Of a stretch of 64,000 nucleotides of DNA, positions 8,881 to 47,797 are shown in pieces. The notes beneath the pieces are model-generated. The model was not told the origin of the DNA. It saw only the letters and a list, made by a program, of their open reading frames with translations, and searched no databases. Position 1 is the first letter of the stretch; every line of letters starts with the position of its first letter. Position numbers and translations under genes: made by a program. The stretch is from Halomontanus rarus (GTDB taxonomy: Archaea > Halobacteriota > Halobacteria > Halobacteriales > Natrialbaceae), in assembly GCF_017357405.1 (NCBI RefSeq), contig NZ_CP071597.1:1612001-1676000 (forward strand), read 5' to 3'.

Positions 8881-10707
8881 ATGAGCGAGAATACGAATCA
8901 GAACGGGCGAAAGCAGTTGAATAGCGATACAGGAACGACACGCCGGTCCTTCATGAAAGCGGCGAGTGCTGGCGCGGTCACCGTCGGATTCGGTGCCAGT
9001 ATGATGGGCAGTGCCGGTGCAGCGGGAATCAACCTCCCGCCACTGGCGCGTGACGGTAACAAAATCGTCGATCCGAGCGGCAACGAGGTCATCCTCCGCG
9101 GTGTGAACATCGCTGATCCCGGCGAACAGAGTCGAGAGTGGCGCGGTCAGACGGCTCCCGAAACGTTCGAACTGGCGACCGACCCGAACGAAGGGTGGTT
9201 CAACCGGATCATCCGCATTCCGATGCAGCCTCAGTTCATTTCCTCCGGTACCGTAGCCCCGTCGGAAAATGACATGGCACACGGCGACGACTGGGGTCCC
9301 GTCCTTCCGGGTGCGCTCGAGCAGAGCGACCTCGAGTGGTACCTCGAAACCTACATCGACGAACTCGTCGAGATGGGGCGCGAGCGCGGCGCCTACGTCA
9401 TGCTCGACTACCACCGTCACTACCCGATCTTCCACCAGGAAGACCACCAGAACCACGGCGTCCCAAATGACATCTGGGTCTGTTCGTCCGACGGCGGCGA
9501 GGACTGGCGGTATCCGGAAGTCTGTGGGGAGCGCGGTGTGCTCTGGCACGGCGAGGACCAGGTCGACGAGATCTGGAATCTGATCGACGAACAGAACATC
9601 CTCGAGGCGTTCGACCTCTCCGAGGACGACATCTACCTCGAGCCGGCAGAGATCACCAACGCGCTCGACGACGAGCTCCAGATGTTCTGGTCGACCGTTG
9701 CGGACCGGTACGCCGAGGACATGCACGTCGTCTTCGACGTCTACAACGAGCCGACCGGACCGTACGGCGGCGACTGGGGCGGACCGCAGCGTCAGGCCGG
9801 CGAACTCTCCGAGCCCGCAGTTGCTCCCGGCGATGCAGAGGGCAACTACGACGTGGCTCACTGTGAGATGAAGGCGTGGTACGACCTCTGGCGCGACCGT
9901 GCACAGCCGTGGGTCGATACGGTCGAAGAGAACGCACCGGGCCATCTCGTCACGATCGGCAACCCCCGCTGGAGCCAGTACACCCACTGGGCGCCGTACA
10001 ACGAGTTCGAGGCCGAGAATATGTGTTACACGGGTCACGTGTACACGCAGGACGATCTCCGCCCGCTGGGCGACTACTTCGGCGATCCGGCAGAGCAGGT
10101 GCCGATCTTCTTCAGCGAGTTCGGCTGGATGTCCCACGAAGGGCTGGTGGAGACGCCGTGGATGGACTGTTCCGGCGAACACGATGGCGACTGTGGTCCC
10201 TACATCGAAGGCTTCGAGCAGTTCCTCAACGAGTACGACGTCCACCCGATCTGTTGGAACTTCGATCACACGTACGAGCCGAACTTCTTCGATCACGGCG
10301 AACCGGGCCAGGGCAACGGTGCCGTCGGCGCCGACGACTGGATGGGCCACCTTCTCGACACCACGCCGGGTCAGTGGTGGCACGAGTGGGTTCAGGACAA
10401 AGAAGGCGACCGGGACCAGCCGACCTCCGGCTCGACGGCCTACGACGGAGACGGCGGACCCAACTCGATGCACGTCGGGTACGAGGACGTTGGAGACTGC
10501 GATGGCGGTACCAGCGGCACTTCTCAGGACACCACCGGTGACGGCCTCCACAACGACATCAACGGTGACGGGGAAACCACGGCGACCGACGTCACCGAGT
10601 TCTTCGACGGCTTCAACGACGAGTACTCCGACGCGCAGTACTACGACTTCAGCGGCGACGGACAGGTGACGACCACCGACGTCATCGAACTGTTCAACAG
10701 CCTGTAA
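8881..10707 (+). CDS. Secreted GH5 endoglucanase with C-terminal dockerin
   Basis: This 608-residue protein is exported by Tat: RRSFMK with Arg21-Arg22 precedes a hydrophobic stretch and a Gly/Ala-rich cleavage region. The GH5 (beta/alpha)8 domain spans about residues 50-510 and starts with the usual VDPSGNEVILRGVN. The catalytic acid/base is Glu290 in YNEP and the nucleophile Glu413 in SEFGW, so it should be an active retaining enzyme, most likely a cellulase. It has several cysteines (e.g. VCSS, EVCGE, MDCSG, GDCGP), unusual for a haloarchaeal protein and possible disulfides outside the cell. A dockerin (about residues 550-608) carries loops DTTGDG and DFSGDG. Its dockerin closely matches that of the 21514 gene. 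Confidence 0.93.
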   Translation: MSENTNQNGRKQLNSDTGTTRRSFMKAASAGAVTVGFGASMMGSAGAAGINLPPLARDGNKIVDPSGNEVILRGVNIADPGEQSREWRGQTAPETFELATDPNEGWFNRIIRIPMQPQFISSGTVAPSENDMAHGDDWGPVLPGALEQSDLEWYLETYIDELVEMGRERGAYVMLDYHRHYPIFHQEDHQNHGVPNDIWVCSSDGGEDWRYPEVCGERGVLWHGEDQVDEIWNLIDEQNILEAFDLSEDDIYLEPAEITNALDDELQMFWSTVADRYAEDMHVVFDVYNEPTGPYGGDWGGPQRQAGELSEPAVAPGDAEGNYDVAHCEMKAWYDLWRDRAQPWVDTVEENAPGHLVTIGNPRWSQYTHWAPYNEFEAENMCYTGHVYTQDDLRPLGDYFGDPAEQVPIFFSEFGWMSHEGLVETPWMDCSGEHDGDCGPYIEGFEQFLNEYDVHPICWNFDHTYEPNFFDHGEPGQGNGAVGADDWMGHLLDTTPGQWWHEWVQDKEGDRDQPTSGSTAYDGDGGPNSMHVGYEDVGDCDGGTSGTSQDTTGDGLHNDINGDGETTATDVTEFFDGFNDEYSDAQYYDFSGDGQVTTTDVIELFNSL

Positions 10708-10748: not shown

Positions 10749-11232
10749 GACGGAAGCGATTGGAGTTCCCCGACGGGTTCCGTCGTGGTGTTCGACGGGC
10801 CGTAGTCGGGTTCGCGGTTCTCTAAATCGCTCTGTTCGCCGACCGCGACCGTCCACCGGCGGTTCGCGGAGCTGAACGGATCAACCGACCACGACTATCG
10901 CTGGCGATTTCCGACGGAGTGGTCGTCGCCAAGCGACGATCACCGCCGCTCTCCGCCAACGGAGCGCGGAGAGCGATTTTTCTTCGAAATACGACCGACG
11001 GGCGACACTCGAGCGTCGAGAGTACAGCGACTCGAGCGTCGTATATCAATTATTTCGACTGTAACTATTATATAATCTGCTTATGAAAAATTTTATCTAT
11101 ACCAGTGGCTAATTAGAGCAATGTACTGCACCACGCGTACGTTCACGAGAATAACGGCACACCGAATCCGAACCGCTCGTGGACCGCAGTGGGGTGTTCA
11201 GGGCGACAGCCCCTATCGGGGATTTCAATAGC
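10749..11232. other. Intergenic region upstream of the scaffoldin gene
   Basis: About 480 bp without a recognisable gene. The first part (to about 11045) is GC-rich and rich in CGA/TCG repeats. The second part is AT-rich, with TATTATATAATC near 11067-11078 and the promoter-like GAAAAATTTTATC at 11085-11097. An in-frame ATG at 11179 precedes the chosen scaffoldin start at 11233, but the intervening peptide does not resemble a signal region. Confidence 0.5.
11085..11097 (+). promoter_or_regulatory. Putative BRE/TATA promoter of the scaffoldin gene
   Basis: GAAAAATTTTATC matches the promoter-like string upstream of the 8881 and 28392 genes. It lies about 135 bp upstream of the chosen ATG at 11233, implying a leader of roughly 110 nt if it is the TATA box, long for a haloarchaeal mRNA. 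A second AT-rich candidate lies at 11067-11078. Confidence 0.4.
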
Positions 11233-14200
11233 ATGAGCGAAAACACAACAGAAACCGACCGAGACGAAGAAGAACCGAGTAACGGTACACGCTGGGACAC
11301 GTCACGCCGTACCTTCATGAAGGCGGCGAGTGCCGGCGCCGGTGCGCTCGCGTTCGGGAGCGCGAGTATGTCGGGCTTGGCCAGTGCAGAGCCACAGATC
11401 CCGACGCCGCGGCTGCAAGTCGAAGGGAACCTGATCACGGATCCCGAAGGGAACCAAGTTACGCTGCGCGGGGTCAACATCATCGACCCCAAACGTGCGG
11501 ATACCCTCGCACCGACTCGAGGGAAGAACGCAGTCCAAACGGTCGAGATGCTCACCGACAAGGGCAACGGCTGGCACACCCACGTGGTCCGTATTCCGAT
11601 CCAGCCACAGGACATCGGCGAACACGAGGGCGGCACTGCGGCACAGCCGCCGGCGTTCACCGAGAGCGAACTCGAGGACTACCTCGAGAACCACCTCGAT
11701 CCAGTGATCGAGACGTGTCGCGAACGGGGCGTCTACGCGATCGTCGACTATCACCGTCACTGGCATGAGTCCGGCGGTGCCTACGATGCCGAGGAGACCC
11801 TGTACTGGGCCAAACTTCAGGATCAGGATCCGAGCGCATCCGTCGCGTGGGACGACGTCGAAGAACAGATGGATCAGCTGGTGCCGAATCCGGAACTTCA
11901 GGACGAAGTCAATATGTTCTGGGACGTCGTCGCGCCGCGGTACGCCGACGACGAACACGTCCACTACGAGGTCTACAACGAGCCGACACAGCCGGGGATG
12001 TGGGGTCCCACCGACAACGAAGCGGTGCAATCCCTCTGGAGCACCTGGATCGACACGGCCCAGCCGTGGGTAGACACGATCCGCGAACACGCACCGGAGA
12101 CGCTCCTCATGATGGGCTCTCCAGGGTGGACTGCGTCGCCAGAGGGCGCGCTCATCGAGCCCTTCGACGACGACAACATGGCGTACACGTACCACGTCTA
12201 CCCGGGGCACGCTGCGAGTTCGGAGACTGCCTGGGGAGACGACCCGACCTGGGACAACAGCGGTTCGACGATCGGGTCCGTTCACGAGGAACACCCGGTC
12301 GTCGTTACCGAGTTCGGCTGGCAGAACGGCGCCGACTCGGACCTCTTAGACGGAACCGTCTCGGGATACGGAGAGCCGATCGTCGAGTGGATGGAAGAAC
12401 ACGACGGCATTCACTGGACCGCGTGGTGTGCGGACATCTGGTGGACGCCGAAAATGTTCGAACGCGGATTCGAGATTCAGAGCAGCGAATCCTCCGGTCA
12501 TCCATACGAGGATCCGGTCCCGACCCACTGTGAGGAGCTTCCCTGCGAGTGGGACTTGCTCGGCGCGGACGTCGGCGCCTACGACGACTATATGGGCGCG
12601 TTCATCAAGGACACGCTCGAGGAGTATCAGGACGACGGCGTTCCGGCCGGCGAGGTGGCCGGTCCCGGCGATGGTTCCGAGTCCGGAGACGATTCCCTGG
12701 TCTCCGTCGATCTCTCGGCGGACCAGATCGACGCGGGCGACACCGTCGAGGCGACCGTCTCCATCGCGGAGATTCCGCGTGGGCTCTCCGGCCTGCTCGG
12801 TGACGCCGGTGTGAGCGACCCCAGCGTCGCTACCGTCACCGATGCGAGCATCAACGAGGACTTCGGCATGGTCCAGGACATCGAGATCAGCGACGACGGC
12901 TCGATGGTCAACCTCGTCTCCGCCGACATCAGTGGTGCCTTCGAAGAAGGCGATACCGACATCGAACTGTTCACCCTCGAGCTCACCGGCCAGGGCGATG
13001 GCGAGACCGAGATCGTTCTCGAAGAGCTGATCGAGGCCGGCGACGGGACGTTCTACGAATTCGACCTCGGCAGTCCGTCCCTCACTGTCGGTGATGGTGT
13101 CGATGATGGCGAGGAAGAAGAGGACAACGAAGAAGAGAACGACGGCGAGGAAGAAGAAGGCAACGACGGAGAAGAAGAGGAGGACAACGAGACCGGCGAG
13201 GTAACCGTATCTGTCGATCTCTCGGCGGACCAGATCGACGCGGGCGACACCGCCGAAGCGACCGTGACTATCTCGGAGCTCCCGCGCGGGCTCTCCGGCC
13301 TGCTCGGTGACGCCGGCGTGAGCGACCCCAGCGTCGCCACCGTCGCCGACGCCAGCATCAACAGCGATTTCGACATGGTTCAGGACGTCGAAATCTCGGG
13401 CGACGGCTCGATGGCCAACCTCGTCTCCGCCGACACTGGCGGTAACTTCTCCGAGGGGGACACCGACGTCGAACTCTTCACTCTCACCCTCGAGGGCCAG
13501 GACGACGGTGAGGTCGACATCGTTCTCGAGGATCTCATCGAGGCTGGCGACGGCAGCTTCTACGACTTCGCTCTCGACGCACCGTCGCTCGCTGTCGGCG
13601 ATGGTGTCGACGATGGCGAGGAGGAGACCGGTGGCGAACCGACTGTCACCGTCGACCTCTCGGCCGACCAGATCAACGTGGGCGGCACCGTCGAAGCCAC
13701 CGTTTCCATCTCGGAGCTCTCGAACGGCCTCTCCGGACTGCTCGGCGACGCCGGCGTCAGCAACCCCGACGCCGCAACGGTGACTAACGCGAGCATCAAC
13801 AGCGATTTCGATATGGTTCAGGACATCGAAATCTCTGAGGACGGCTCGATGGTCAACCTCGTCTCCGCCGACACCGGCGGCAACTTCTCCGAGGGCGACA
13901 CCGACGTCGAACTCTTCACCCTCGAGCTCACCGGCCAGGGTGAAGGAGACACCGACATCGTCCTCGAGAACCTGATCGAAGGTAGCGACGGCACGTTCTA
14001 CGACTTCGCGTTCGACTCGCCGACCCTCTCCGTCGACAGCGACGTCGACGACGGTGAAGAGGAAGACGACGAGGAGGAGACCGGTGACGGGCCGACCGTT
14101 ACCGCCGATCTCTCGACGGACCAGATCGAAGCGGGCCAGACCGCCGAAGTCGACGTCAGCATCTCGGAGCTCTCGAACGGCCTCTCCGGCCTGCTCGGCG

Positions 14201-17200
14201 ACGCCGGCGTCAGCAATCCCGACGCCGCGACGGTCACCGACGCGACCATCAACCCCGATTTCGATATGATTCAGGATATCGAAATCTCCGACGACGGTTC
14301 GATGGTCAACCTCGTCTCCGCCGACACTGGCGGCAACTTCACTGAGGGAGACACCGACGTCCACCTCTTTACCCTCGAGCTCACCGGCCAAGGTGAGGGC
14401 GAGACCGACATCGTCCTCGAGGATCTCATCGAGGGTAGCGACGGCACGTTCTACGACTTCGCGTTCGACTCACCGAGCCTCACCGTCACCGACGAAACCG
14501 GTGGTGGCGGTGATGTGGTCGTCACCGCCGACCTCTCGACCGAAGAGATCGAAGCGGGCCAGACCGCCGAAGTCGACGTCAGCATCTCGGAACTCTCGAA
14601 CGGCCTCTCCGGCCTGCTCGGCGACGCCGGCGTTAGCAATCCCGACGCCGCGACGGTCACCGATGCGACCATCAACCCCGATTTCGATATGATCCAAGAT
14701 ATCGAAATCTCCGACGACGGCTCGATGGTCAACCTCGTCTCCGCCGACACCGGCGGTAACTTCTCCGAAGGAGATACCGACGTCCACCTCTTCACTCTCG
14801 AGCTCACCGGCCAGGGTGAAGGAGACACCGACATCGTTCTCGAAGACCTCATCGAGGGTAGCGACGGCACGTTCTACGACTTCGCATTCGACTCGCCGAC
14901 CCTCTCGGTTACCGGCGACGGAACCGGCGGCGACGAGGATGTGACCGTCACCGCCGATCTTTCGACAGACAGTATCCAGGCGGGCGAGACCGCCGAGGCG
15001 GCAATCTCCATCTCGAGTCTTCCGAACGGACTCTCCGGTCTGCTCGGCGATGCAGGTGTGAGTAACACCGACGCCGCAACGGTTACGGACGCGACCATCA
15101 ACTCCGATTTCGATATGATCCAAGATATCGAAATCTCCGACGACGGCTCGATGGTCAACCTCGTCTCCGCCGACACCGGCGGCAACTTCTCCGAGGGCGA
15201 CACCGACGTCGAACTGTTCACTCTCGAGCTCACCGGTCAGGGCGACGGCGAGACCGACATCGTCCTCGAGGATCTCATCGAAGCCAGCGACGGGACGTTC
15301 TACGACTTCGAATTCGATTCGCCGACCCTCTCGGTTACCGGCGACGGAACCGGCGGCGATGACCCGGTTGTCACTGCCGAGCTCTCCACAAGTGAGATCG
15401 AAGCAGGTGACACCGCCGAAGTCGACGTCAGCATCTCGGCACTTCCGAACGGACTCTCCGGTCTGCTCGGCGATGCCGGTGTGAGCAACCCTGAGGCCGC
15501 GACAGTGACGGACGCGACCATCAACCCCGATTTCGATATGATCCAGGATATCGAAATCAGTGACGACGGCTCGATGGTCAATCTGGTTTCGGCCGACACC
15601 GGCGGCAACTTCTCCGAAGGAGATACCGACGTCCACCTCTTCACCCTCGAGCTCACCGGTCAGAGTCAGGGCGAGACCGACATCGTTCTCGAAGACCTCA
15701 TCGAGGGCAGCGACGGGACGTTCTACGACTTCGAGTTCGACTCGCCGACCCTCTCGGTCACCGGTGACGGACCCGGCGACGTTACCGTCACCGCAGACCT
15801 CTCGACGGACGAGATCCAACCGGGCGAGACCGCCGAAGTCGACGTTAGCATCTCGAGTCTTCCGAACGGCCTCTCCGGCCTGCTCGGCGATGCAGGTGTG
15901 AGCAACCCCGACGCAGCCACTGTCGTCGATGCGACGATCAATCCCGATTTCGATATGATTCAGGATATCGAAATCTCTGAGGACGGCTCGATGGTCAACC
16001 TCGTCTCCGCCGACACCGGCGGCAACTTCTCCGAGGGCGACACCGACGTCGAACTGTTTACCCTCACCCTCGAGGGTCAGAACGAGGGCGAGACCGATAT
16101 CGTCCTCGAGGACCTGATCGAGGCCAGCGACGGGACGTTCTACGACTTCGAGTTCGACTCGCCGACCCTCGCAGTCGGGGGAATCGTCACTGGCGACGAT
16201 CCGGTCGTCACCGCCGACCTCTCGACCGACGAGATCGATGCTGGTGACACCGCCGAAGTCGCGGTCTCCATCTCGGAACTCCCGCGCGGGCTCTCCGGAC
16301 TCCTCGGTGACGCCGGCGTCAGTAACCCCGACGCAGCCACTGTCGTCGATGCGACGATCAACCCCGATTTCGATATGATTCAGGATATCGAAATCAGCGA
16401 CGACGGCTCGATGGTCAACCTCGTCTCCGCCGACACCGGTGGTAACTTCTCCGAGGGCGACACCGACGTCGAACTGTTCACCCTCACTCTCGAGGGTCAG
16501 GGACAGGGCGAGACCGATATCGTCCTCGAGAATCTCATCGAAGCCAGCGACGGGACGTTCTACGACTTCGAGTTCGACTCGCCGACCCTCGCAGTCGGGG
16601 GGATCGTCACTGGCGACGATCCGGTCGTTACCGCAAACCTCTCGGCGGACCAGATCGAAGCGGGCGAGACCGCCGAAGCCGCGGTCTCCATCTCGGAACT
16701 CCCGCGCGGCCTCTCCGGTCTGCTCGGCGATGCGGGTGTGAGCAACACCGACGCCGCGACAGTGACGGACGCGACCATCAACTCCGATTTCGATATGATC
16801 CAGGATATCGAAATCTCCGAGGACGGCTCGATGGTCAACCTCGTCTCCGCCGACACCGGCGGTAACTTCTCCGAGGGCGACACCGACGTCGAACTCTTCA
16901 CCCTCGAGCTCACCGGCCAAGGTGAGGCCGAAACCGAGATCGTCCTCGAGGACCTGATCGAGGCCGGCGACGGCAGCTTCTACGACTTCGAGTTCGACTC
17001 ACCGACGCTCGCCGTCACGGACGGCGATGGACCCGGACCGTCTCCGGACGCCCTCGTCGTCGACAGCTTCGGCAGTACCGGCCAGTGGAACGAGCTGGGC
17101 CGCTGGCGCGGCGGCGGCAGCTTCCAGAACGGCGAAGGCGAGATCGCAAGCGGCGAACTCGTCCTCGAGTACGACAACGCTGGCTGGTACGCCAGCCAGG

Positions 17201-17469
17201 TCGACGAGGACGTCTCCGAGTACGACGAGCTCGTCTTCAGCATCCGTGGAGACAGCGGCGGCGAGGAGAGCGACTTCACCGTCTCGCTCGGCGGAGCCAA
17301 CGCGCTCGCCTCGAGTGTCGCCGACAGTAGTGTGTCCACGAGCACCGGCGACCTGCGGATCGACCTCGATGCGCTGGGTGCGAACCAGAGTTCGCCCGGC
17401 CAGTTGAACCTCAACTTCTGGCAGGGCGGCAGTAGCACGGTCTACATCGAAGAGATCCGGTTCGAATAG
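11233..17469 (+). CDS. Catalytic scaffoldin: GH5 domain, ten cohesins, C-terminal jelly-roll CBM-like domain
   Basis: This 2078-residue secreted protein has a Tat signal (SRRTFMK, Arg25-Arg26). A GH5 domain follows (about residues 55-475) with acid/base Glu250 in YNEP and nucleophile Glu360 in TEFGW. Then come ten cohesin-like modules beginning near residues 490, 657, 803, 953, 1095, 1237, 1377, 1517, 1657 and 1797. Each carries G-D/E-T-x-E-A/V beta strands, GLSGLLGDAGVS, VNLVSAD and LFTLxLxGQ blocks, the cohesin pattern seen in other haloarchaeal proteins. The first modules are joined by long Glu/Asp linkers, later ones by short Gly/Asp linkers. The last 140 residues (WNELGRW...NLNFWQGG...IEEIRFE) match the CBM-like domains of the 37359 and 38275 proteins. 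There is no dockerin or membrane anchor. By architecture it would seat up to ten dockerin enzymes; binding is inferred. The start at 11233 (MSENTTE) was chosen by analogy with the 8881 protein. Confidence 0.9.
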   Translation: MSENTTETDRDEEEPSNGTRWDTSRRTFMKAASAGAGALAFGSASMSGLASAEPQIPTPRLQVEGNLITDPEGNQVTLRGVNIIDPKRADTLAPTRGKNAVQTVEMLTDKGNGWHTHVVRIPIQPQDIGEHEGGTAAQPPAFTESELEDYLENHLDPVIETCRERGVYAIVDYHRHWHESGGAYDAEETLYWAKLQDQDPSASVAWDDVEEQMDQLVPNPELQDEVNMFWDVVAPRYADDEHVHYEVYNEPTQPGMWGPTDNEAVQSLWSTWIDTAQPWVDTIREHAPETLLMMGSPGWTASPEGALIEPFDDDNMAYTYHVYPGHAASSETAWGDDPTWDNSGSTIGSVHEEHPVVVTEFGWQNGADSDLLDGTVSGYGEPIVEWMEEHDGIHWTAWCADIWWTPKMFERGFEIQSSESSGHPYEDPVPTHCEELPCEWDLLGADVGAYDDYMGAFIKDTLEEYQDDGVPAGEVAGPGDGSESGDDSLVSVDLSADQIDAGDTVEATVSIAEIPRGLSGLLGDAGVSDPSVATVTDASINEDFGMVQDIEISDDGSMVNLVSADISGAFEEGDTDIELFTLELTGQGDGETEIVLEELIEAGDGTFYEFDLGSPSLTVGDGVDDGEEEEDNEEENDGEEEEGNDGEEEEDNETGEVTVSVDLSADQIDAGDTAEATVTISELPRGLSGLLGDAGVSDPSVATVADASINSDFDMVQDVEISGDGSMANLVSADTGGNFSEGDTDVELFTLTLEGQDDGEVDIVLEDLIEAGDGSFYDFALDAPSLAVGDGVDDGEEETGGEPTVTVDLSADQINVGGTVEATVSISELSNGLSGLLGDAGVSNPDAATVTNASINSDFDMVQDIEISEDGSMVNLVSADTGGNFSEGDTDVELFTLELTGQGEGDTDIVLENLIEGSDGTFYDFAFDSPTLSVDSDVDDGEEEDDEEETGDGPTVTADLSTDQIEAGQTAEVDVSISELSNGLSGLLGDAGVSNPDAATVTDATINPDFDMIQDIEISDDGSMVNLVSADTGGNFTEGDTDVHLFTLELTGQGEGETDIVLEDLIEGSDGTFYDFAFDSPSLTVTDETGGGGDVVVTADLSTEEIEAGQTAEVDVSISELSNGLSGLLGDAGVSNPDAATVTDATINPDFDMIQDIEISDDGSMVNLVSADTGGNFSEGDTDVHLFTLELTGQGEGDTDIVLEDLIEGSDGTFYDFAFDSPTLSVTGDGTGGDEDVTVTADLSTDSIQAGETAEAAISISSLPNGLSGLLGDAGVSNTDAATVTDATINSDFDMIQDIEISDDGSMVNLVSADTGGNFSEGDTDVELFTLELTGQGDGETDIVLEDLIEASDGTFYDFEFDSPTLSVTGDGTGGDDPVVTAELSTSEIEAGDTAEVDVSISALPNGLSGLLGDAGVSNPEAATVTDATINPDFDMIQDIEISDDGSMVNLVSADTGGNFSEGDTDVHLFTLELTGQSQGETDIVLEDLIEGSDGTFYDFEFDSPTLSVTGDGPGDVTVTADLSTDEIQPGETAEVDVSISSLPNGLSGLLGDAGVSNPDAATVVDATINPDFDMIQDIEISEDGSMVNLVSADTGGNFSEGDTDVELFTLTLEGQNEGETDIVLEDLIEASDGTFYDFEFDSPTLAVGGIVTGDDPVVTADLSTDEIDAGDTAEVAVSISELPRGLSGLLGDAGVSNPDAATVVDATINPDFDMIQDIEISDDGSMVNLVSADTGGNFSEGDTDVELFTLTLEGQGQGETDIVLENLIEASDGTFYDFEFDSPTLAVGGIVTGDDPVVTANLSADQIEAGETAEAAVSISELPRGLSGLLGDAGVSNTDAATVTDATINSDFDMIQDIEISEDGSMVNLVSADTGGNFSEGDTDVELFTLELTGQGEAETEIVLEDLIEAGDGSFYDFEFDSPTLAVTDGDGPGPSPDALVVDSFGSTGQWNELGRWRGGGSFQNGEGEIASGELVLEYDNAGWYASQVDEDVSEYDELVFSIRGDSGGEESDFTVSLGGANALASSVADSSVSTSTGDLRIDLDALGANQSSPGQLNLNFWQGGSSTVYIEEIRFE
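12700..17025 (+). repeat. Tandem array of ten cohesin-coding repeats
   Basis: Ten in-frame repeats begin near 12700, 13201, 13640, 14089, 14515, 14941, 15361, 15781, 16201 and 16621. From the sixth on the spacing is exactly 420 bp (140 codons). Repeats 4-10 share long stretches of nearly identical DNA around the GLSGLLGDAG and DGSMVNLVSADTGGN blocks, a sign of recent expansion or gene conversion. Repeats 1-3 are more diverged and have longer acidic linkers. This is a protein-module repeat; a short-read assembly could misjudge the copy number. Confidence 0.9.
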
Positions 17470-26053: not shown

Positions 26054-26179
26054 ATCGACTGAAACGCGACTGGGCAGGCGTCTCGACCGATCCCGTGACA
26101 CGGATTCCGACGAACGGCCGTGTGTCGCGTTGGGAGGCTGCGACCAGTCGTGACTGAGAAATCCGATCAGGACAGATCC

Positions 26180-37216: not shown

Positions 37217-37358
37217 GGCGCTCTCGCTCGAGCCGGCGAACCCGAAGACACCAACTGTTGACACACCTCATTTTGGCGATCGAATAGCATAATCGGACAC
37301 CTATTTATTGAGTTATAGATGTAGTTATTTTTATGGTCTAGAAGGTAGAGTATTCTGT

Positions 37359-38274: not shown

Positions 38275-40014
38275 ATGGTGAAACGAAGGACCGTCCTCAG
38301 GAACGGGATCGTGATCGGAACGGCCGGCCTGGTCGGGCTGGGTTCCAGCGGCACAGTCACAGTCGGTGCGGATCCGCTCGAGACCGACGACGAGTTGTCC
38401 GCGGAGACGTCGATAACCGTAAACCGGTTCGAGTCGGGGGCGTATCCGGGCCAGAACGAACTCGAGGAGTGGTCCGAACACGTCGCGTTCGAGGACGCCT
38501 CGATCGCGGACGGCGCGCTCCGACTCGAGTACGACGACGGCGGCTTTCTCGCGAGCAACGTCATGGACGACCTCTCGGAGTACTCCCACCTCGTGCTGGT
38601 CGTCCGCGGGGACGACGGCGGCGAGGAAGACGATATTCAACTCGAGGTCGGGAGCGTCGAGGGACTACTCTCGGAGCTGACCGACGACTCGATCGGGGCC
38701 GAGTTCTCGCCCGTGGTGGTCGATCTCGAGGAGATCGGCGTCGATCGCTCGTTCGTCGACGACGTCCAGCTCAACTTCTGGCAGTACGGCAGCGGCGCCG
38801 TCGAGATCGAGGAGATCGCGTTCGTCGGCGGGCTCGAAGAGAATCCGGGCGATCCCGGCGGTGGCACCGATATCACGGGCGAGACGACCCTCGACGAGTT
38901 CTATCCGGAACATCGGGAGGAAGACGTCCTTCGAGCATGGACCGAGTACATTCCGGGCGACCTGAGCAGCGGCCACGGGAGCGCAGGGTCGCAGGTCAAC
39001 TGGCCCGACGCGGAGAAGGCCGACGAGTTCGACGTCGATCTCGACATGATCGAGAACAGACACTCGAACGACGACGCCACGCTGACGTTCGACGATATGG
39101 GAACGCAGGCGCTCGGTCACGTCCAGCAGTACGAGGCCGAAGGCTTTCCCCGTCAGGCCAGCGCCAAGCTGTTGCCGCGCCTCTCCTTGCTCCCCGACGA
39201 GACCGAGGCGTTGACCTACCACAACGAGCCCCAGGAAGTCTGGGACGAGACCGCAGGTCCGATCGCGGCGACGAACGACCCCGATCAGCTCATTCAGGAC
39301 CCGTGGCCGCCGGACGCACGGAGCTACGAGCCCGATCAGGTCGCGATCCGCGACCGCGCCCACGACCAGCCCCAACACGAGGATCAGGAGGGGTGGACGA
39401 CGGCCGACAACCTCCCGGACGACCGGTACTACGACGACGACAATCCGATCCACGATATCGCGGACGGTATCCACCCCGCGACGGGCGAATCCCTCGGTGG
39501 CGACGGCTTCACCGCCAACGCACCGATGGAGGTCGAAGCGAAGATTCACGTCGAGAACGACGGTTTCTGGTATCAGGTTCTCAACTTCAAAAACGTTAGC
39601 AACGTGCCGTACTACCTCAACGCCGCGGTCATCATGTGGATCGGTCCCGCGGGCGCGAACGGAGACTTGCGAACCGGTCACTACAACAACGAGCAGCGTC
39701 CGCAACCGGGTTACGGCCACCCCCAGCGGGACATCATCGCCGTCTCCCACGACGAGGAACGCGCCCTCACTGCCTACGCGGTCCGTCTCGCCTTCCACGA
39801 CGAACCCTACAACATGCGGACGGCCTACCCGAACCAGCGCTGGGGTCTCGAGCAGGGAACGTCGAAACCCGAGGGGCACTTCGAGACGGCCGAGGAACGA
39901 CAGGAACTCGTCGACACGATGGCCGAGACCTGCCACGTCGAAATCGAGACCGACATGGACCGCAACGACGACCTGCTGGACGCCGTCAACCTGCGCAATC
40001 GGATGTCGAACTAA
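38275..40014 (+). CDS. Secreted CBM-like domain fused to an unrecognised C-terminal domain, no dockerin
   Basis: The 579-residue protein begins with a Tat-type signal (KRRTVLRNGIVIGTAG). Residues about 45-183 are the same jelly-roll domain as in the 37359 protein (EWSEHVAFED, FLASNVMDDLSEYSHL, VEGLLSELTDDSIGAEFS, LNFWQYGSGAVEIEEIAFV). After a Gly/Pro linker, residues about 200-579 form a domain I cannot assign. It is rich in His, Tyr and Trp: HGSAGSQVNWPDAEK, MIENRHSNDD, KIHVENDGFWYQVLNFKNVS, MWIGPAGANG, HPQRDIIAVSHDEE and CHVEIETDMDRNDD. It ends without dockerin or anchor. The immediate neighbour has CBM plus dockerin, so this may be a freely secreted partner; function is unknown. Confidence 0.85.
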   Translation: MVKRRTVLRNGIVIGTAGLVGLGSSGTVTVGADPLETDDELSAETSITVNRFESGAYPGQNELEEWSEHVAFEDASIADGALRLEYDDGGFLASNVMDDLSEYSHLVLVVRGDDGGEEDDIQLEVGSVEGLLSELTDDSIGAEFSPVVVDLEEIGVDRSFVDDVQLNFWQYGSGAVEIEEIAFVGGLEENPGDPGGGTDITGETTLDEFYPEHREEDVLRAWTEYIPGDLSSGHGSAGSQVNWPDAEKADEFDVDLDMIENRHSNDDATLTFDDMGTQALGHVQQYEAEGFPRQASAKLLPRLSLLPDETEALTYHNEPQEVWDETAGPIAATNDPDQLIQDPWPPDARSYEPDQVAIRDRAHDQPQHEDQEGWTTADNLPDDRYYDDDNPIHDIADGIHPATGESLGGDGFTANAPMEVEAKIHVENDGFWYQVLNFKNVSNVPYYLNAAVIMWIGPAGANGDLRTGHYNNEQRPQPGYGHPQRDIIAVSHDEERALTAYAVRLAFHDEPYNMRTAYPNQRWGLEQGTSKPEGHFETAEERQELVDTMAETCHVEIETDMDRNDDLLDAVNLRNRMSN

Positions 40015-40450: not shown

Positions 40451-41941
40451 ATGACAGCAAACGATCACACGGACACAGACGCGGACGCACCGAGGAACAG
40501 GGACACGAACGCGCTGGCGACGGGTCGTCGACGCTTCATGAAGGCCGTCGGGGCCGGTGCGCTGGTCGGAACGGTCGGCCTCGGACCGGCGACAGGAGCG
40601 GCGAGTGCCGATATGGATTCGTTCGTCGAAACGGACGGGACGGAGTTCGTCGTCGACGGTGAACCGGTGTACTTCAGCGGGACGAACAACTTCTGGATTA
40701 CCGATCACTACTCGATGAGCGAACAGCGGATCGACGACTGCTTCCAGCTGTTCGCCGACCTCGGGATCGATCTCGTCCGAATCTGGGCCCACGGTGAGGC
40801 CAAAGAGGGGCCACTGGGCGTCCAGCCGGAACCCGGCCAGCACAACGAAGAGGCGCTGGCGCTCCACGATTACGTGATCGAGACGGCCAAAGAACACGGG
40901 ATCCGACTCATCGTGACGCTCGTCGACAACTGGGAGCACGAGGGCGGGATGCTCCAGTACGCCGAGTGGACCGGCGGGAGCACGCGCCATCACTTCTACA
41001 CGAATCAGGAGGCTCGGGACCTGTACACGAACCACGTCGAAACGATCGTCACTCGCGAGAACTCGATCTCCGGTGTCGAGTGGCGCAACGATCCCACTAT
41101 CATGATGTGGGAACTCGCCAACGAACCCCGACTCGAGGCCGACGATACCGATCAGGGCGAGCTCGACCGTGACACGGACGAGCACAAGGACATTCTCGGT
41201 GCCTGGTTCGCGGACATGTCCTCGTACATCAAATCACTCGACGACAACCACCTCGTCTCCACGGGTTCGGAAGGCCACTACTACGGTGGGTACGACGACG
41301 AGTACCCGTACGGCAATTGGGACGGCCAGTCGTACATCGACCACCACGCGATCGACACGATCGACGCCGCGTCGTTCCACTGGTATCCCGACCACTGGAA
41401 CATGGATCTCGATCACGGCACACAGTGGATCACCGAACACGTCGAGGATGCCCACCAGCAACTCGGTAAACCCGCGTATCTCGGCGAGTTCAACGTCAAC
41501 ATCGACAACGGTCTCGAGCGACGGAACGAACTCCTCGAGGAGTGGTACGCCACGGCCGACGAAGTCGACTGTAACGCCGTCTTGCCGTGGCAGATCGTGC
41601 TTGACGATACCGAGGACCACGACGGTTTCCAGCTCTATCGGGACGAGTCGGGCGACATCATCGAGAACTATTCGTCGATCGCCGCCGAAAAGAGCGGTGA
41701 CTCGAACGGTGGCTCCGGCGACGAGCCGCCGGCGATCGACGGGACCGTCCCGCAGGATACGACCGGTGACGGTCTCTCCAACGACTTCGACGGCAGTGGC
41801 TCGACGACGACCACGGACGTGAACGTCTTCTTCGAGAACGTCGACAACCCGGACGTCGCCGACTATCCCGAGTACTACGACTTCGACGGCAACGGCCAGG
41901 TGAGCGTTACCGACGTCGTCGAACTCTTCGACAGCCTCTGA
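40451..41941 (+). CDS. GH5 beta-mannanase-like enzyme with dockerin
   Basis: The 496-residue product has a Tat signal (GRRRFMKAVGAGALVG, Arg26-28) and a mannanase-type GH5 domain (about residues 55-415): FVETDGTEFVVDGEPVYFSG, TNNFWITDHY, MWELANEPR with acid/base Glu225, and LGEFNVN with nucleophile Glu346. It is the simplest of the three mannanase-like enzymes, with the dockerin (about 436-496) directly after a short Ser/Gly linker. The dockerin DNA and the first 40 bp after the stop are nearly the same as those of the GH10 gene, a sign of recent copying. Start at 40451, MTANDHTD. Confidence 0.92.
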   Translation: MTANDHTDTDADAPRNRDTNALATGRRRFMKAVGAGALVGTVGLGPATGAASADMDSFVETDGTEFVVDGEPVYFSGTNNFWITDHYSMSEQRIDDCFQLFADLGIDLVRIWAHGEAKEGPLGVQPEPGQHNEEALALHDYVIETAKEHGIRLIVTLVDNWEHEGGMLQYAEWTGGSTRHHFYTNQEARDLYTNHVETIVTRENSISGVEWRNDPTIMMWELANEPRLEADDTDQGELDRDTDEHKDILGAWFADMSSYIKSLDDNHLVSTGSEGHYYGGYDDEYPYGNWDGQSYIDHHAIDTIDAASFHWYPDHWNMDLDHGTQWITEHVEDAHQQLGKPAYLGEFNVNIDNGLERRNELLEEWYATADEVDCNAVLPWQIVLDDTEDHDGFQLYRDESGDIIENYSSIAAEKSGDSNGGSGDEPPAIDGTVPQDTTGDGLSNDFDGSGSTTTTDVNVFFENVDNPDVADYPEYYDFDGNGQVSVTDVVELFDSL

Positions 41942-41982: not shown

Positions 41983-42546
41983 TGCGGTCTGCGATACGGG
42001 CTCGTGACTATTCTATTTAATTCGACTCGCGAAGCTATGCTTCGCGTCCTTCGACGGGCTGTGGCCCTCGAGCCAGCGAATTTCGAGGTTCTCCGTTCGG
42101 GCGCGTTTGAAAGAGCGGCGGGACGAACCCGACGAGAGCCGGATCGGATCACACTCGTTCGGTCGTCGGGTCCAGCGAAGACGAGTGTGACTGTCGAACG
42201 GACGTCGGTCAGGGAGAGCGTATCGACCCGCGTCACGTGTGGTTCTCGATCGATCACAGAGAGAACGGAGGCGCTGAATTATCACGCTTCATACACAGTA
42301 TTTATCGTAGCGTATCGTCCTAATATACGTTGAGTTGCGGAAGAAATGATAGGTGCGGCGGTACTGAGAGGGAGTGAACGCGACCCTGCTACCGGACGGC
42401 ACAAGGTCGGTGCAGTTGTCGTCTCGTCGTCACGGCGAGTCGCTCGGCGGTACTCGGATTAGTCGGACCGCGCGCTAATCAGCCAGTGCTCACACTCGTC
42501 ACCGAGATGCGTGAGAGCGGAACGAAACGGAGAACGGAACCCTACC
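41983..42546. other. Intergenic region before the third mannanase, with an orphan 3' element
   Basis: About 560 bp without an intact gene. It holds a perfect hairpin at 42028-42046 (CGCGAAGC, TAT, GCTTCGCG), then a sequence resembling the last codons of a dockerin gene and an orphan copy of the 3' element (42066-42100). Two AT-rich zones ('tattctatttaattcg' near 42008 and 'cacagtatttatcgtagcg' near 42293) could hold promoters. Confidence 0.45.
42046..42100 (+). pseudogene. Probable remnant of a lost dockerin gene end plus 3' element
   Basis: TTCGACGGGCTGTGGCCCTC parallels the TTCGACAGCCTCTGAG ending of intact dockerin genes, with the stop codon changed to TGG. It is followed directly by CTCGAGCCAGCGAATTTCGA and GGTTCTCCGTTCGG, the conserved 3' element. 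Nothing upstream remains recognisable. The call rests on short similarity. Confidence 0.35.
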
Positions 42547-45168
42547 ATGACAGAGAGATACGAACCGACACCACAGACGGACGAATCGACGACCGAAACG
42601 ACCAAGAGCGGCTGGTACGGATCGACACGACGACGCGATTTCCTGAAGGCGGTCGGTGCCGGTGCGCTCGTCGGGACGCTGGGGGCGACGACCGCCAGTG
42701 CGGCGCCGGAGATGACCGACTTCGTCGAGACCGACGGCACGGACTTCGTCGTGAACGGACGGCCGATCTACTTCAACGGGACGAACAACTTCTGGATCTC
42801 CAACAGTCACGCCGACAGGCAGCGCGTCGACGACCTGATCGAGTTGTTCGACGGACTGGGCCTCGACATCTTACGGACGTGGGCCCACTGTGCGGGCGGG
42901 GACGGACACTGCATCCAACCGGAACTCGGCGTCTACGACGAGGCGGGCCTCCAACACCTCGATTACATCGTCGCGAAGGCCAAGCAACACGGGATCAGGC
43001 TCGTCCTCGGACTGGCGGACAACTGGGACCACGACGGCGGGATCCCACAGTACGTCGAGTGGATCGACGGCCTCGAGGATCGCGGGGACTTCTACACGAA
43101 AGAGGCGGGCCGGGAGGCCTACCGGAACCACGTCGAGACCATCCTCACCCGGACGAACACGATCACGGGGATCGAGTACCGCAACGAACCCGCCATCGCG
43201 ATGTGGGAACTGTGTAACGAACCGCGCCTCGAGTCGGATCAGGCGGCGAGCGTCGACGACCACCACGGGGCGCTCCACGACTGGTTCGCGGACATGTCCG
43301 CGTACATCAAAGAGCTCGATTCGAACCATCTGGTGTCGACCGGTGCGGAGGGATTTTACACTCGCGAGGACGGCGAGAACTGGATGTACGACGACTGGAC
43401 GGGATCGGACTACATCGAGAACCACTCGATCGACACGATCGACGCCTGCTCGTTCCACATGTACCCCCACTGGTGGCCGGGCCTCGGCGTCGAAGGCCAC
43501 TTCGGAGAGGACGACTTCGTCACGTGCGTCGAGTGGATCCAGCAACACAGTGTCGACGCTCACGAGAAGGTCGGCAAACCCGTCTACTGCGGCGAGTTCA
43601 ACGTCAACGCCGAACAGGGCCTCGAGGTCAGGAACTCGGCGCTCGAGCGGTGGTACGATACCTTCGACGAGTACGACGCGAATGCCGCCTTACCCTGGCA
43701 GATCGTCCTCGAGGACACCGACGACCACGACGGCTTCCAGCTCTATCCCAGCGAATCCGGTCACATCGTCGAAGCGTACGGTGACGCCGTCGCGTCGAAG
43801 ACCGGCGGCAGCGACGGCGGCCCGATCGCCGACGCCGTCTCGCCCGAGACGCTCCGCGTCGGCGAAACCGGCGAGTTCAGTGCGGCCTACTCCGCGGGCG
43901 GCGGGCGGGAGCTCGCGAGCTACGAGTGGGCGTTCGGCGACGGCACGACCGAGTCCGGCGAACTCGTCGGGCACGCGTTCGACGCCGCCGGCGAGTACGA
44001 GGTGACGCTCACGGTGACCGACGAGGGCGGCGTGAGCGCCACGAACGCGGAGTCCGTCACCGTCGAGGGGATTCCGGAGGATTCGTTCGTCGTCGAAGGC
44101 GCCGGCAGACAGATTCACGAGGAGATCACCGAGTTCCACGTCGCCTACGGGACACAGTCGGGCGACTTCGACGTCGAAGCGAACGTCGCGACGATGAACT
44201 CGACCGATCCATCGGCTCAGGCCGGCATTGTGGCGCTGGCGGATCTCGAGGCCGACGGCGCGATCGGCGGCGTCGCCGTCTCGCCGAGCGAGGGGACCGA
44301 ACTCGTCCGGGCGTACGACGAGACGACGGCGACCTGGCGCCAGCGACTGCGCGACGACCGGGCGCCGCCGCTGTGGCTCAGACTCGAGCGCACCGACGAT
44401 ACCGTCACGGGGTACGCCTCCGAGGACGGCGAGAGCTGGACGGAACTCGAGAGCGGGCAGGTCGACTTCGACGAGGAGGTGTTCCTCGGACTGTTCGTCA
44501 GTAGCAACTCGGCGGGCGATCGCTGTACCGTCCAGTTCGACGACGTCGCCTGGCTCGCAACCCAAGAGTGGGCGCACACCGACGTCGGTGACGTCGGGGT
44601 ATCCGGGAGCGCGACCGCGGGAACCGGTGAAACCGGCGGCGGTGGCGGTGGTGGTGGTGGCGATCCCGAACCGCCGGCGTCACCCGCTGACGTGTGGGTC
44701 GTCGAAGCAACCGAGACGACGGTCGCGATCGGGTGGGAGGCGGTCGACGAGGCCGACGCCTATCGGGTCTCTCTCGGCGGGAGCCTCGAGACCGAGACCG
44801 AGACCGAAATCGAGACCGGCGAGACCGAGACGACGATCGACGGGCTCGAACCCGATACCGCCTACGAGATCGGCGTCTCGGCGGTCGCCGACGGCGAGGA
44901 GTCGGCGGTCGAGGTGATCACCGCGAGTACGCTCCCGGCGGGCGGTGACGGGCCACCGTCGATCGACGGCACCGAACCCGCCGATACCACGGGTGACGGG
45001 CTCTACAACGACGTCACGGGAAGCGGAGAGACGACCACGACGGACGTCACCGTCTTCTTCGAGCACGTCGACGACCCTGCCGTCACGGAGTACCCGGAGT
45101 ACTACGACTTCGACGGCAACGGGCAGGTGACCGTCACCGACGTCGTCGACCTCTTCGAGTCGATCTAA
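42547..45168 (+). CDS. Multimodular GH5 beta-mannanase-like enzyme: GH5, PKD, concanavalin-like, Fn3, dockerin
   Basis: The 873-residue protein has a Tat signal (TRRRDFLKAVGAGALVG, Arg28-30). The mannanase-type GH5 domain (about residues 55-415) has acid/base Glu225 in LCNEPR and nucleophile Glu350 in CGEFN. A PKD domain (about 425-505) is recognised by YEWAFGDGT and HAFDAAGEYEVTLTVTD. Residues about 508-675 form a concanavalin-like/DUF1349-type beta-sandwich (DPSAQAGIVALADLEADG, WLRLERTDDTVTGYASEDGE, FLGLFVSSNSAGDRCTVQFD). A Gly-rich linker, an Fn3 domain (about 715-800) and a dockerin (about 812-873) follow. Mannan as substrate is inferred from the family; the beta-sandwich may bind carbohydrate. 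Confidence 0.9.
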   Translation: MTERYEPTPQTDESTTETTKSGWYGSTRRRDFLKAVGAGALVGTLGATTASAAPEMTDFVETDGTDFVVNGRPIYFNGTNNFWISNSHADRQRVDDLIELFDGLGLDILRTWAHCAGGDGHCIQPELGVYDEAGLQHLDYIVAKAKQHGIRLVLGLADNWDHDGGIPQYVEWIDGLEDRGDFYTKEAGREAYRNHVETILTRTNTITGIEYRNEPAIAMWELCNEPRLESDQAASVDDHHGALHDWFADMSAYIKELDSNHLVSTGAEGFYTREDGENWMYDDWTGSDYIENHSIDTIDACSFHMYPHWWPGLGVEGHFGEDDFVTCVEWIQQHSVDAHEKVGKPVYCGEFNVNAEQGLEVRNSALERWYDTFDEYDANAALPWQIVLEDTDDHDGFQLYPSESGHIVEAYGDAVASKTGGSDGGPIADAVSPETLRVGETGEFSAAYSAGGGRELASYEWAFGDGTTESGELVGHAFDAAGEYEVTLTVTDEGGVSATNAESVTVEGIPEDSFVVEGAGRQIHEEITEFHVAYGTQSGDFDVEANVATMNSTDPSAQAGIVALADLEADGAIGGVAVSPSEGTELVRAYDETTATWRQRLRDDRAPPLWLRLERTDDTVTGYASEDGESWTELESGQVDFDEEVFLGLFVSSNSAGDRCTVQFDDVAWLATQEWAHTDVGDVGVSGSATAGTGETGGGGGGGGGDPEPPASPADVWVVEATETTVAIGWEAVDEADAYRVSLGGSLETETETEIETGETETTIDGLEPDTAYEIGVSAVADGEESAVEVITASTLPAGGDGPPSIDGTEPADTTGDGLYNDVTGSGETTTTDVTVFFEHVDDPAVTEYPEYYDFDGNGQVTVTDVVDLFESI

Positions 45169-45325
45169 CGAACAGAGCGAGAGTTCCATGGGCCACCCGA
45201 CCCGTAGTCGGGTACCACTCCGAGAGGCGGATCGTCGGCGGTCAAATTATCCACCCAGATTTTAGTTGATAATATATCTATTTTATTCAAAAAATATTAT
45301 CGTCAGCCACTGTGATCAGTGTTCT

Positions 45326-47797
45326 ATGGCAAGAGGACTCGAGAGCAGTGGCGACGAATCGGGAGGGGAGAACGAACGGTGGAGCCACTCGACGCGTCGA
45401 ACGTTCCTGAAAGCGGCGGGGGTCGGCGTCGGCGGACTCGCACTCGGCGGGGTTCCCGGAACGGCGTCGGCTGCGGGCGTTCCGACGCCGCGGCTCCAGA
45501 CCGACGGCAAGTGGATCACGGACCCGCTCGGAAACGAGGTGAAACTCCGCGGGTTCGCGACGGCGAGTCTGGACTACATCGCCTACGACTGGTACCCGTG
45601 GTCGGTCAGGGAGATTCTCGAGATGGCGACCGATCGCGAGGCGGGCTGGCATCCGAACCACGTTCGACTGCCCTGCGAGAAGGGAGGAATCGACGAGTAC
45701 GGCGGCGTCGAGCCGTTCGTCGAGGAGGTGCTCCGACCGGCTGTCGACTACCTCGCCGCGAGGAACGTCTACGCGATGATCGACTTCCACCTCATTCGAC
45801 CCTACACGCAGGCGGCGACCGACGACTACAACGAGGGAGAAGACGAGGAACTGGAACCGATCGACGACGTCGTGAGGGAGTTCTGGAGCGTGGTCGCACC
45901 CGAATTCGCCGACGACGAACACGTCCTCTACGAACTGTTCAACGAGCCGACCTACCCGCTGCAGTGGGGCGAGTACGGACAGACGGTCGACCGCGAGGAG
46001 TCGTGGCTGCTCTGGCGCGACACCGCCCAGCCGTGGGTCGACCTCGTCCGCGAGCACGCACCGGAGACGCCGGTCGTCATCGGCTCGCCCAACTGGACCT
46101 CCGAGACGCAGTTCGCCCCCGAGTATCCCTTCGAGGGCGAGAACCTGATCTACGCCAGTCACATCTACCCGGCCAACGGCCAGCCCGAGGAGTTCGACGA
46201 GGAGTACGGCGCGCCCGCCGAGGAGGTACCAGTGATCGTCACCGAGTTCGGCTGGGACCCCGACGGCGGCCAGATCGACGGGGCGACGACCGCAGAGTGG
46301 GGCGCACCGTTTCGCGAGTGGGCCGAGTCCTACGACAACATGGGCTGGACGGCGTGGTGTTTCGACGACTCGTGGGCCCCCGCGATGTTCGAGTCGCCGC
46401 CGGACAATCCGCAGCAGGGGGCGGGCCGCCCCTGGGCGCTGAAGGACGACGAAGACCAACACGGCGGCTACATCAAATCGTGGCTCGCGGAGACGAGAGA
46501 CGAGCTGGTACCGGAGTCGCCGATCGGCGAGGACGTCCCGCCGAACCCGCCGGCGGACATCGGCGTCATCAGCGCCGGCGAAGTCAGCGCCCGGATCGGC
46601 TGGGAACCCGCGACGGATCCGGGCGAGGCCGGCATCTCCCACTACGAGGTCGCCCTCGAGGGTACCCGACAGGGGCTGGTCCTCCCGAGCGAGGAGTTGC
46701 GAGCGACGATATCGGGACTCGAGCCCGACTCGAGCTACGAGGTCTCGATCGTCGCTGTGGACGACGTGGACAACGAGTCCGAGCCCGCGACGGTGACGGT
46801 CGAGACCATCCCCTACGGTAGCGCGCAGACGCCGTTCGACGGCCCGAACGCGATTCCCGGGCAACTTCCGGCCGAGGACTTCGACGAGGGCGGACGAGGG
46901 ATCGCCCACTACAGCACCGCATCCGAGGCCACGACGGACGTCGACTACCGCGAGACGAGCGTGACGCTCGAGGAATCGGGCGAGACGGGGTACAATATCG
47001 GCAACATCAACGCCGGCGAGTGGTGGGAGTACACGGTCGACGTCGAGGGGCCGGCGACCTACGAGCTCACGGTTCGCGTCGCCAACGGTTCGAATACGAC
47101 CTACGACCCGGCACTCAGCGTCCACGTCGATCGCGAGGAGGTTGCGAGCACCGTCGTGTGGCCGACCGGTGGGTGGAGCGAGTTCACGGAGATTCGCGTC
47201 GGGAGCGTCGACCTCTCGGCCGGCGAGCACATCGTCCGGGTCGTCGCCGAGTCCGGCGGCTGGAACTTCGACTGGCTCGAGTTCGACGGCGAGCCAGGCG
47301 ACGCCCCCGGTCCGAAGAAACCTGCAGCACCCGAAGACGTGGACGTTGCCGAGACGACCCCGACGTCGATCGACCTGCACTGGGAGTCGGTTTCCGAAGC
47401 CGAGTCCTACAACGTCTACCTCGAGGGAACACTCGCAGAGCAGGTCACGGAATCGCAGGCGACGATCGCGGACCTCGAGTCCGACACGACCTACGAGATC
47501 GGCGTCTCGTCGGTCGCAGGAGCGGAGGAATCGGACCCCGAGACGGTCACTGCCAGCACCCTGCCAGCGGATGGCGAGGGTCCACCGGCGATCGACGGGA
47601 CGCAGCCTGCCGACACGACCGGTGACGGTCTCTCCAACGACTTCACGGACAGCGGTTCGACGACGACCACGGACGTGACCGTCTTCTTCGAACACGTCGA
47701 CGACCCCGCCGTCACGGAGTACCCCGACTACTACGACTTCGACGGGAACGGTCGGGTGAGCGTGACGGACGTCGTCGAACTCTTCGATAGCCTGTAA
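45326..47797 (+). CDS. Multimodular GH5 endoglucanase: GH5, Fn3, CBM6-like, Fn3, dockerin
   Basis: The 823-residue protein starts at MARGLESSGD with a Tat motif STRRTFLKAAG (Arg24-Arg25). GH5 (about residues 50-395) has KLRGFATASLDYIAYDWYP, acid/base Glu207 in FNEP and nucleophile Glu307 in TEFGW. It is the closest relative of the 35747 catalytic domain. An Fn3 domain (about 405-495) is followed by a CBM6-like jelly roll (about 500-655) recognised from PGQLPAEDFDEGGRGIAHY, NIGNINAGEWWEYTVDVEG and GGWNFDWLEF. A second Fn3 (about 665-748) and a dockerin (about 763-823) complete it. CBM6 modules bind xylan or beta-glucan chains. An inverted repeat CACTG-TGAT-CAGTG lies just before the ATG (45308-45321). 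Confidence 0.92.
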   Translation: MARGLESSGDESGGENERWSHSTRRTFLKAAGVGVGGLALGGVPGTASAAGVPTPRLQTDGKWITDPLGNEVKLRGFATASLDYIAYDWYPWSVREILEMATDREAGWHPNHVRLPCEKGGIDEYGGVEPFVEEVLRPAVDYLAARNVYAMIDFHLIRPYTQAATDDYNEGEDEELEPIDDVVREFWSVVAPEFADDEHVLYELFNEPTYPLQWGEYGQTVDREESWLLWRDTAQPWVDLVREHAPETPVVIGSPNWTSETQFAPEYPFEGENLIYASHIYPANGQPEEFDEEYGAPAEEVPVIVTEFGWDPDGGQIDGATTAEWGAPFREWAESYDNMGWTAWCFDDSWAPAMFESPPDNPQQGAGRPWALKDDEDQHGGYIKSWLAETRDELVPESPIGEDVPPNPPADIGVISAGEVSARIGWEPATDPGEAGISHYEVALEGTRQGLVLPSEELRATISGLEPDSSYEVSIVAVDDVDNESEPATVTVETIPYGSAQTPFDGPNAIPGQLPAEDFDEGGRGIAHYSTASEATTDVDYRETSVTLEESGETGYNIGNINAGEWWEYTVDVEGPATYELTVRVANGSNTTYDPALSVHVDREEVASTVVWPTGGWSEFTEIRVGSVDLSAGEHIVRVVAESGGWNFDWLEFDGEPGDAPGPKKPAAPEDVDVAETTPTSIDLHWESVSEAESYNVYLEGTLAEQVTESQATIADLESDTTYEIGVSSVAGAEESDPETVTASTLPADGEGPPAIDGTQPADTTGDGLSNDFTDSGSTTTTDVTVFFEHVDDPAVTEYPDYYDFDGNGRVSVTDVVELFDSL

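Follow-up and report, generated by a model that had tools for sequence, protein, structure and literature searches.

A predicted cellulosome-like gene island in the haloarchaeon Halomontanus rarus

Cellulosomes are best known from bacteria such as Clostridium thermocellum, in which the genes carry names such as CipA and OlpA. In the anchored sub-type, the scaffoldin that carries the cohesin modules has a dockerin of its own, which is held by an anchoring cohesin, and OlpA displays individual dockerin-bearing enzymes. A survey from 2024 that covers prokaryotic RefSeq genomes arrives, in the part of its text available, at 37 cellulosome-producing species, called bacterial (PMC11557425). Non-cellulosomal cohesin-dockerin proteins exist in archaea, both in Archaeoglobus fulgidus (2xdh) and in anaerobic methanotrophic (ANME) archaea; the accessible text of the ANME study, citing an earlier review, gives large scaffoldins as absent in archaea, yet describes ANME proteins with as many as five cohesins (PMC9012536). 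None of the literature matches listed named an archaeal cellulosome in its title or the start of its abstract, with subscription papers and preprints outside the scope of the search. The subject here is a cellulosome-like gene island of Halomontanus rarus (Natrialbaceae), found in a window of 64,000 nucleotides, that is, the whole stretch of DNA analysed (GCF_017357405.1, contig NZ_CP071597.1, positions 1,612,001-1,676,000 of the forward strand).

The island (8881-47797 of the window, 39 kb) consists of sixteen genes of a single theme, all on the + strand: a scaffoldin with ten cohesin modules, a tailed protein with one, 13 proteins that end in an intact dockerin, and one protein without a dockerin. 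Nine of the dockerin proteins are of the type of glycoside hydrolase family 5 (GH5), one is a GH10, one is a GH81, and two have no recognised enzyme domain. It is quite likely that the scaffoldin and the thirteen dockerin proteins, of which eleven belong to glycoside hydrolase families, assemble into a secreted complex of the cellulosome kind. Its substrates in brine would be cellulose, mannan, xylan and beta-1,3-glucan. This reading is supported by predicted folds, intact catalytic motifs, gene neighbourhood, the co-occurrence of the two module types and their parallel divergence, and by recurrence in other haloarchaea that grow on cellulose. A preliminary description of the DNA had listed the ten-cohesin protein, the thirteen intact dockerin proteins, the GH5, GH10 and GH81 enzymes and their placement on one strand within 39 kb, all of which was borne out. 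Its broader claim of a cellulosome-like set in one locus is also supported, with the amendments that the scaffoldin has no dockerin and that related sets occur in several haloarchaeal families. The available text of the 2024 survey has at least one glycoside hydrolase fused to a dockerin among its criteria, and such fusions make up 11 of the 13 dockerin proteins of the island (PMC11557425).

The scaffoldin gene (11179-17469) encodes a signal of the twin-arginine translocation (Tat) type, a GH5 domain (PF00150, E 1e-31), ten cohesin modules with acidic linkers (12703-17022) and a C-terminal module that resembles a carbohydrate-binding module (CBM; 17050-17466). The preliminary description was right about the ten modules, to which the GH5 domain and a revised start must be added: the start is probably at 11233, because the database copy, on a contig of 4,022,344 bases, has 2078 amino acids. 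Neither a dockerin nor a membrane tail was found in the protein. The tandem modules are about 130 residues each, with pairwise identities of 67-94%. An AlphaFold model of one of them (14521-14922; predicted local distance difference test score of 93.8) has the beta-sandwich fold of a cohesin, and solved cohesins, 9-20% identical to the module, fill all 50 of the Foldseek rows listed. A profile of 11 modules gave 17 matches, with E values from 6.7e-76 to 8.1e-4. These are independent of alignment A3, which also holds rows chosen by eye (the first modules of loci L014 and L016 and the module of the protein at 28392) along with the genome's one match to the Pfam cohesin profile, PF00963, such that the A3 scores of these rows follow by construction. 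The Pfam labels Big_12 and HK-GC sensor on the scaffoldin (29-30 bits) were set aside, given that the structural matches to cohesins are stronger.

Several searches by sequence gave no cohesin match for the repeats. The preliminary description had proposed PF00963 as a check, and this failed: no island module was matched, and a search of the whole genome gave one place only, outside the island. Likewise, hmmscan of the scaffoldin gave no PF00963 match, with no cohesin there from Pfam and NCBIfam together, and a search of the Protein Data Bank (PDB) sequences with the 11-module profile returned one weak, unrelated match. The same PDB search with six other cohesins returned two weak, unrelated matches. 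In A3, which has 17 rows and includes four of the eleven island modules, PF00963 matched only the row from L015, outside the island, and a comparison of the 11-module profile with this lone PF00963 match failed (probability 0.7). The repeat is therefore identified as a cohesin through its predicted fold and through comparison of profiles rather than through Pfam.

The two calcium loops of a dockerin are found by pattern in all 13 of the dockerin proteins, and the helices that follow them are seen in a predicted model, which matches solved dockerins with weak Foldseek scores. The check with the dockerin profile PF00404, also proposed earlier, succeeded in part. At E 0.01 it matched 32 of 36 dockerin module rows, and genome-wide it exceeded its cut-off at five places in the island; with whole island proteins, 12 of 13 matched at E 1, but only one of the 13 passed the cut-off. 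The matches listed by PDB sequence searches with dockerin profiles were mostly calmodulins and further EF-hand proteins, with the clostridial double-dockerin 8x39/8x3a also among them. Positions 10 and 11 of the first loop decide partner choice in clostridial dockerins. In the island these are TT in nine of the 13 dockerins, AT in two, and TN and TS in one each; elsewhere in the genome they are YD in the PhoX and PhoD proteins and IV and VS in two other systems. Three proteins encoded outside the island also have island-type dockerins (123-131 bits), one with a GH9 and the other two with only fn3 among their main matches, so that genes far from the island could also contribute to the complex.

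At the C-terminus of the single-cohesin protein (17786-18514), MPGFG is followed by a hydrophobic stretch and a basic tail. The tail scores 20.9 bits with TIGR04126, below the cut-off of 24.5, and the genome has a gene for a PGF-type archaeosortase (E 4.1e-95). The protein is probably processed by the archaeosortase for display on the surface. It had been described as an anchored single-cohesin protein, with which the one module and the PGF-CTERM-like tail are compatible. An arrangement in which it holds the scaffoldin, as in C. thermocellum, was rejected given that the scaffoldin has no dockerin, and the island is not filed under the anchored sub-type.

Cohesin and dockerin genes lie close together at five loci of the H. 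rarus genome. All six cohesin-only genes lie within 6 kb of a dockerin, which was matched by none of 100,000 random placements (the 6-kb limit was chosen after the distances had been seen), and for the four such genes outside the window one of 100,000 placements was as close. The dockerin partners outside the island are PhoX, PhoD, a subtilase and a PKD protein. In loci L014 and L016, one with the PKD protein and one with the subtilase, the dockerin gene overlaps the next gene by four bases and one base, respectively, with starts as called, and this next gene encodes a tailed protein with two cohesin-like modules. The cohesin proteins outside the island end in PGF-type tails, all below the TIGR04126 cut-off, with no match for that of L015. 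In the PhoX (L013, C1 1474000-1484000) and PhoD (L015, 3848000-3863000) phosphatases, a single chain contains both a cohesin and a dockerin; a tailed single-cohesin protein adjoins PhoX, and another lies about 5 kb from PhoD. Pairs of cohesin-bearing frames of about 880-950 and 250-300 amino acids recur across the order, and the PhoX and PhoD sets look like a widespread device for the surface display of phosphatases.

The association extends to other genomes. Of the two modules, both occur in 148 of 392 genomes of the order, cohesins alone in 11, dockerins alone in 28 and neither in 205 (Fisher p 6e-64, in a two-by-two test that ignores kinship and is inflated by PhoX-type chains with both modules). 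The order-wide searches scored the best 10 or 15 candidates per genome, and per-genome counts are lower bounds. Cohesins were found in 15 of 15 genomes with at least eight dockerins counted, and were absent from four of the 30 with at least five. Six genomes first taken as cohesin-free controls had 0, 1, 0, 0, 0 and 0 dockerins; G087, in which the dockerin occurs, has two cohesin matches and was a bad control. Cohesins and dockerins also diverge in parallel. Within the genome, their identities correlate across five systems (r 0.80), and three of 120 permutations were as good, in a test that omits the protein at 28392 from the island group and the undetected PF00963 cohesin of L015. Across genomes, nine systems gave r 0.75, reached in none of 20,000 permutations, with Natronoglomus excluded, one of several Halococcoides loci used, and species relatedness as a confounding factor.

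Related sets of scaffoldins and dockerins occur in several haloarchaeal families, and the locus described here is not the only one of its kind. Natronoglomus mannanivorans, placed in the same genus by the genome grouping used, has an orthologous locus with a GH5 scaffoldin of eight cohesins, a tailed single cohesin and 17 dockerin proteins in the cluster; it was the only locus found by a contig scan with the cohesin profile. A scaffoldin of eight modules, plus the anchor, is recorded for H. rarus. Natronobiforma cellulositropha encodes a GH5 with at least five cohesins up to a contig end, a hydrophobic-tailed single cohesin and 47 dockerin matches. In Natrinema salaciae, three cohesins in one protein accompany a PGF-tailed cohesin and 19 dockerin matches, and the species is predicted to grow on cellulose. 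Natronolimnobius AArcel1 has three cohesins in a frame of 818 amino acids, with a dockerin about 10 kb away. The 2.7-Mb genome of Halococcoides cellulosivorans has 16 cohesin matches, three of them in one protein, and 71 dockerin matches; these are scattered over many loci (L061-L064) and make up a rich candidate system of its own. Multi-cohesin proteins in further families have five (G265) or three (G061 and G166) cohesins and end in a dockerin, suggesting that a tethered form may exist there. Of 25 dockerin frames in seven of the loci, 10 were scanned, and eight belong to GH5, GH9, GH10 or GH3 (L059, L061, L065, L066 and L072); the two from G061 and G166 belong to other enzyme families. Growth on cellulose is reported, in the parts of the papers available, for Natronoglomus (PMC10963439) and for Natronobiforma, Halococcoides and AArcel1 (PMC10267330). 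Proteins with at least three cohesins thus lie near dockerin genes in all four of the cellulose-growing haloarchaea identified, which are not a census.

These results bear on a simpler scheme in which pairing is only one-to-one: the anchor displays enzymes, while the protein with ten modules is a GH5 that sits on its substrate and has repeats that are mainly spacers, without any large complex. Such a scheme would account for an anchor cohesin of the same type as those of the scaffoldin (54-68% identity) and for a scaffoldin that lacks a dockerin and a tail, and it resembles what is found elsewhere in the genome, where tailed proteins of one or two cohesins appear to display the PhoX, PhoD (at about 5 kb), subtilase and PKD proteins. 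Against it, long invariant stretches such as GLSGLLGDA are common to all ten modules and the anchor module, and eight to ten modules are kept in related species, with multi-cohesin proteins recurring in other lineages. The one-to-one scheme is judged unlikely, although it fares best among the alternatives.

It is very improbable that the dockerins bind polysaccharide directly and that the repeats are unrelated Ig-like stalks. A part in substrate binding is assigned to type I dockerins in the available text on Natronoglomus (PMC10963439), where the words cohesin, cellulosome and scaffold are absent, and is repeated in that of PMC13260240; Pfam also places Big_12 on part of the repeats, at 29 bits with a cut-off of 27. 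The modelled repeat nevertheless matches cohesins throughout the Foldseek rows listed, and dockerins and cohesins adjoin, co-occur and diverge together. That true cohesins serve adhesion between cells or at the cell surface with the enzymes as passengers, as suggested for ANME archaea, where a dockerin and as many as five cohesins occur in proteins with transport and S-layer partners (available text of PMC9012536), can be given hardly any credence when glycoside hydrolase families account for 11 of the 13 island partners and cellulose-growing strains have sets of this design.

In the cellulosome-like complex that is preferred here, most of the island proteins would be exported folded by the Tat pathway, given that a pattern search finds Tat-like signals in 13 of the 16. 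Each dockerin would offer the helices of its two calcium loops to the face of a cohesin, such that up to ten enzymes could be held beside the GH5 of the scaffoldin and act together on a fibre that the C-terminal CBM-like module may contact. Since the scaffoldin has neither a dockerin nor a membrane tail, the tailed single-cohesin protein probably shows individual dockerin enzymes on the cell surface rather than the scaffoldin. Binding, assembly and function in brine are all inferred. The available text on Natronoglomus describes a thicker, layered wall on mannan than on xylan, which its authors tie to contact with insoluble glucans (PMC10963439); such a wall would fit a surface organelle, although it is no proof of one.

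The enzymes are identified by Pfam and by identity to the protein at 42511. Pfam Cellulase (GH5) is above its cut-off in seven dockerin proteins: 8881-10707 (PF00150, E 3e-15; Tat-like signal, and a dockerin with two residues fewer between the loops that scores 24.5 bits with PF00404, above the cut-off), 21514-23487 (also with the short dockerin), 26120-27988, 33655-35481 (with fn3), 35666-37216, 42511-45168 (with PKD, DUF1349-like and fn3 domains) and 45266-47797 (with CBM6 between two fn3 domains). The other two of GH5 type are 18808-21039, with fn3 and CBM5/12-like domains, which is 44% identical to 42511 over its whole length and has no PF00150 match at E 1, and 40451-41941, which is 52% identical to 42511 and is matched by Pfam as a GH2-type TIM barrel, without PF00150. 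The GH10 is at 23912-25918 (PF00331, E 5.7e-34) and the GH81 at 30745-33495 (PF17652, E 2.1e-47). A scan of 12 proteins with GH5 and GH10 motif patterns found catalytic motifs in 11, all but the GH81. All sixteen island proteins have predicted isoelectric points of 4.05-4.13, of which 4.05 is the floor of the program.

The partners described earlier as CBM-only are reduced to one, at 37308-38123, with a CBM-like module and a dockerin for which Pfam on the whole protein gives EF-hand matches but not PF00404. The gene at 28392-30635 encodes instead a divergent cohesin-like module (about 29184-29630; E 8.1e-4 with the 11-module profile) and a C-terminal dockerin. It matches no Pfam family at E 0.01, has a counterpart in Natronoglomus (L070), and may, speculatively, serve as an adaptor. 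The protein at 38275-40014 has no dockerin and no Pfam match, and combines a CBM-like module with a conserved domain (38881-40011). This domain has 53 relatives, some fused to CBM2, CBM3 or CBM5/12 and some in cellulose-growing haloarchaea, and is a candidate for a new polysaccharide-active domain. The CBM-like module of the scaffoldin is 37% and 41% identical to 37458-37889 and 38404-38832 in these last two CBM-bearing proteins; it has no Pfam or PDB sequence match, and its Natronoglomus counterpart is given as GH5/CBM6 in the available text of PMC10963439. Directly upstream of the island is the broken end of a fourteenth dockerin gene (8438-8623, +; 76.2 bits, one internal TAG), which is matched in tblastn by all 13 intact dockerin proteins. 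Three sulfatase-family genes lie downstream, at 51194-52573 (-), 52710-54356 (+) and 56340-57821 (-).

It is probable, with somewhat less assurance than for the complex itself, that cellulosomes exist in a second prokaryotic domain, where multi-cohesin scaffoldins built from a cohesin subfamily missed by Pfam would be the way in which several lineages of cellulose-growing haloarchaea break down plant walls in brine. If so, the evolutionary picture of a machine described as bacterial would change, and salt-stable cohesin-dockerin pairs would become available for protein engineering. Such a cellulosome could also explain the "yet undetectable domains" that PMC10267330 notes in haloarchaeal GH5 proteins with lengths of up to 2,101 amino acids; the available text of that paper counts the cellulosome among four bacterial models and does not contain the words dockerin and cohesin.

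The island resembles bacterial cellulosomes in its multi-cohesin scaffoldin, its GH5 and GH10 enzymes with dockerin tails and its single-cohesin protein, probably borne on the surface, and the predicted folds of its cohesin and dockerin match chains of solved clostridial complexes. Unlike them, it is archaeal, with very acidic proteins, mostly Tat-like signals and an archaeosortase-type tail, and its scaffoldin is itself a GH5 without a dockerin, built from modules of low identity to solved cohesins. The partners named for ANME cohesins and dockerins in the accessible text are transport and S-layer proteins, unlike the plant-wall hydrolases of the island (PMC9012536). The cellulase and mannanase cluster of N. 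mannanivorans is the orthologous island, with eight cohesins where the island described here has ten; in the available text a GH5/CBM6 protein (1,755 amino acids) and an S-layer glycoprotein (258 amino acids) stand at the positions of the scaffoldin and the anchor (PMC10963439). What is new is a probable archaeal system of the cellulosome type, in which the cohesins are divergent, the scaffoldin is itself an enzyme and the display protein is probably processed by an archaeosortase.
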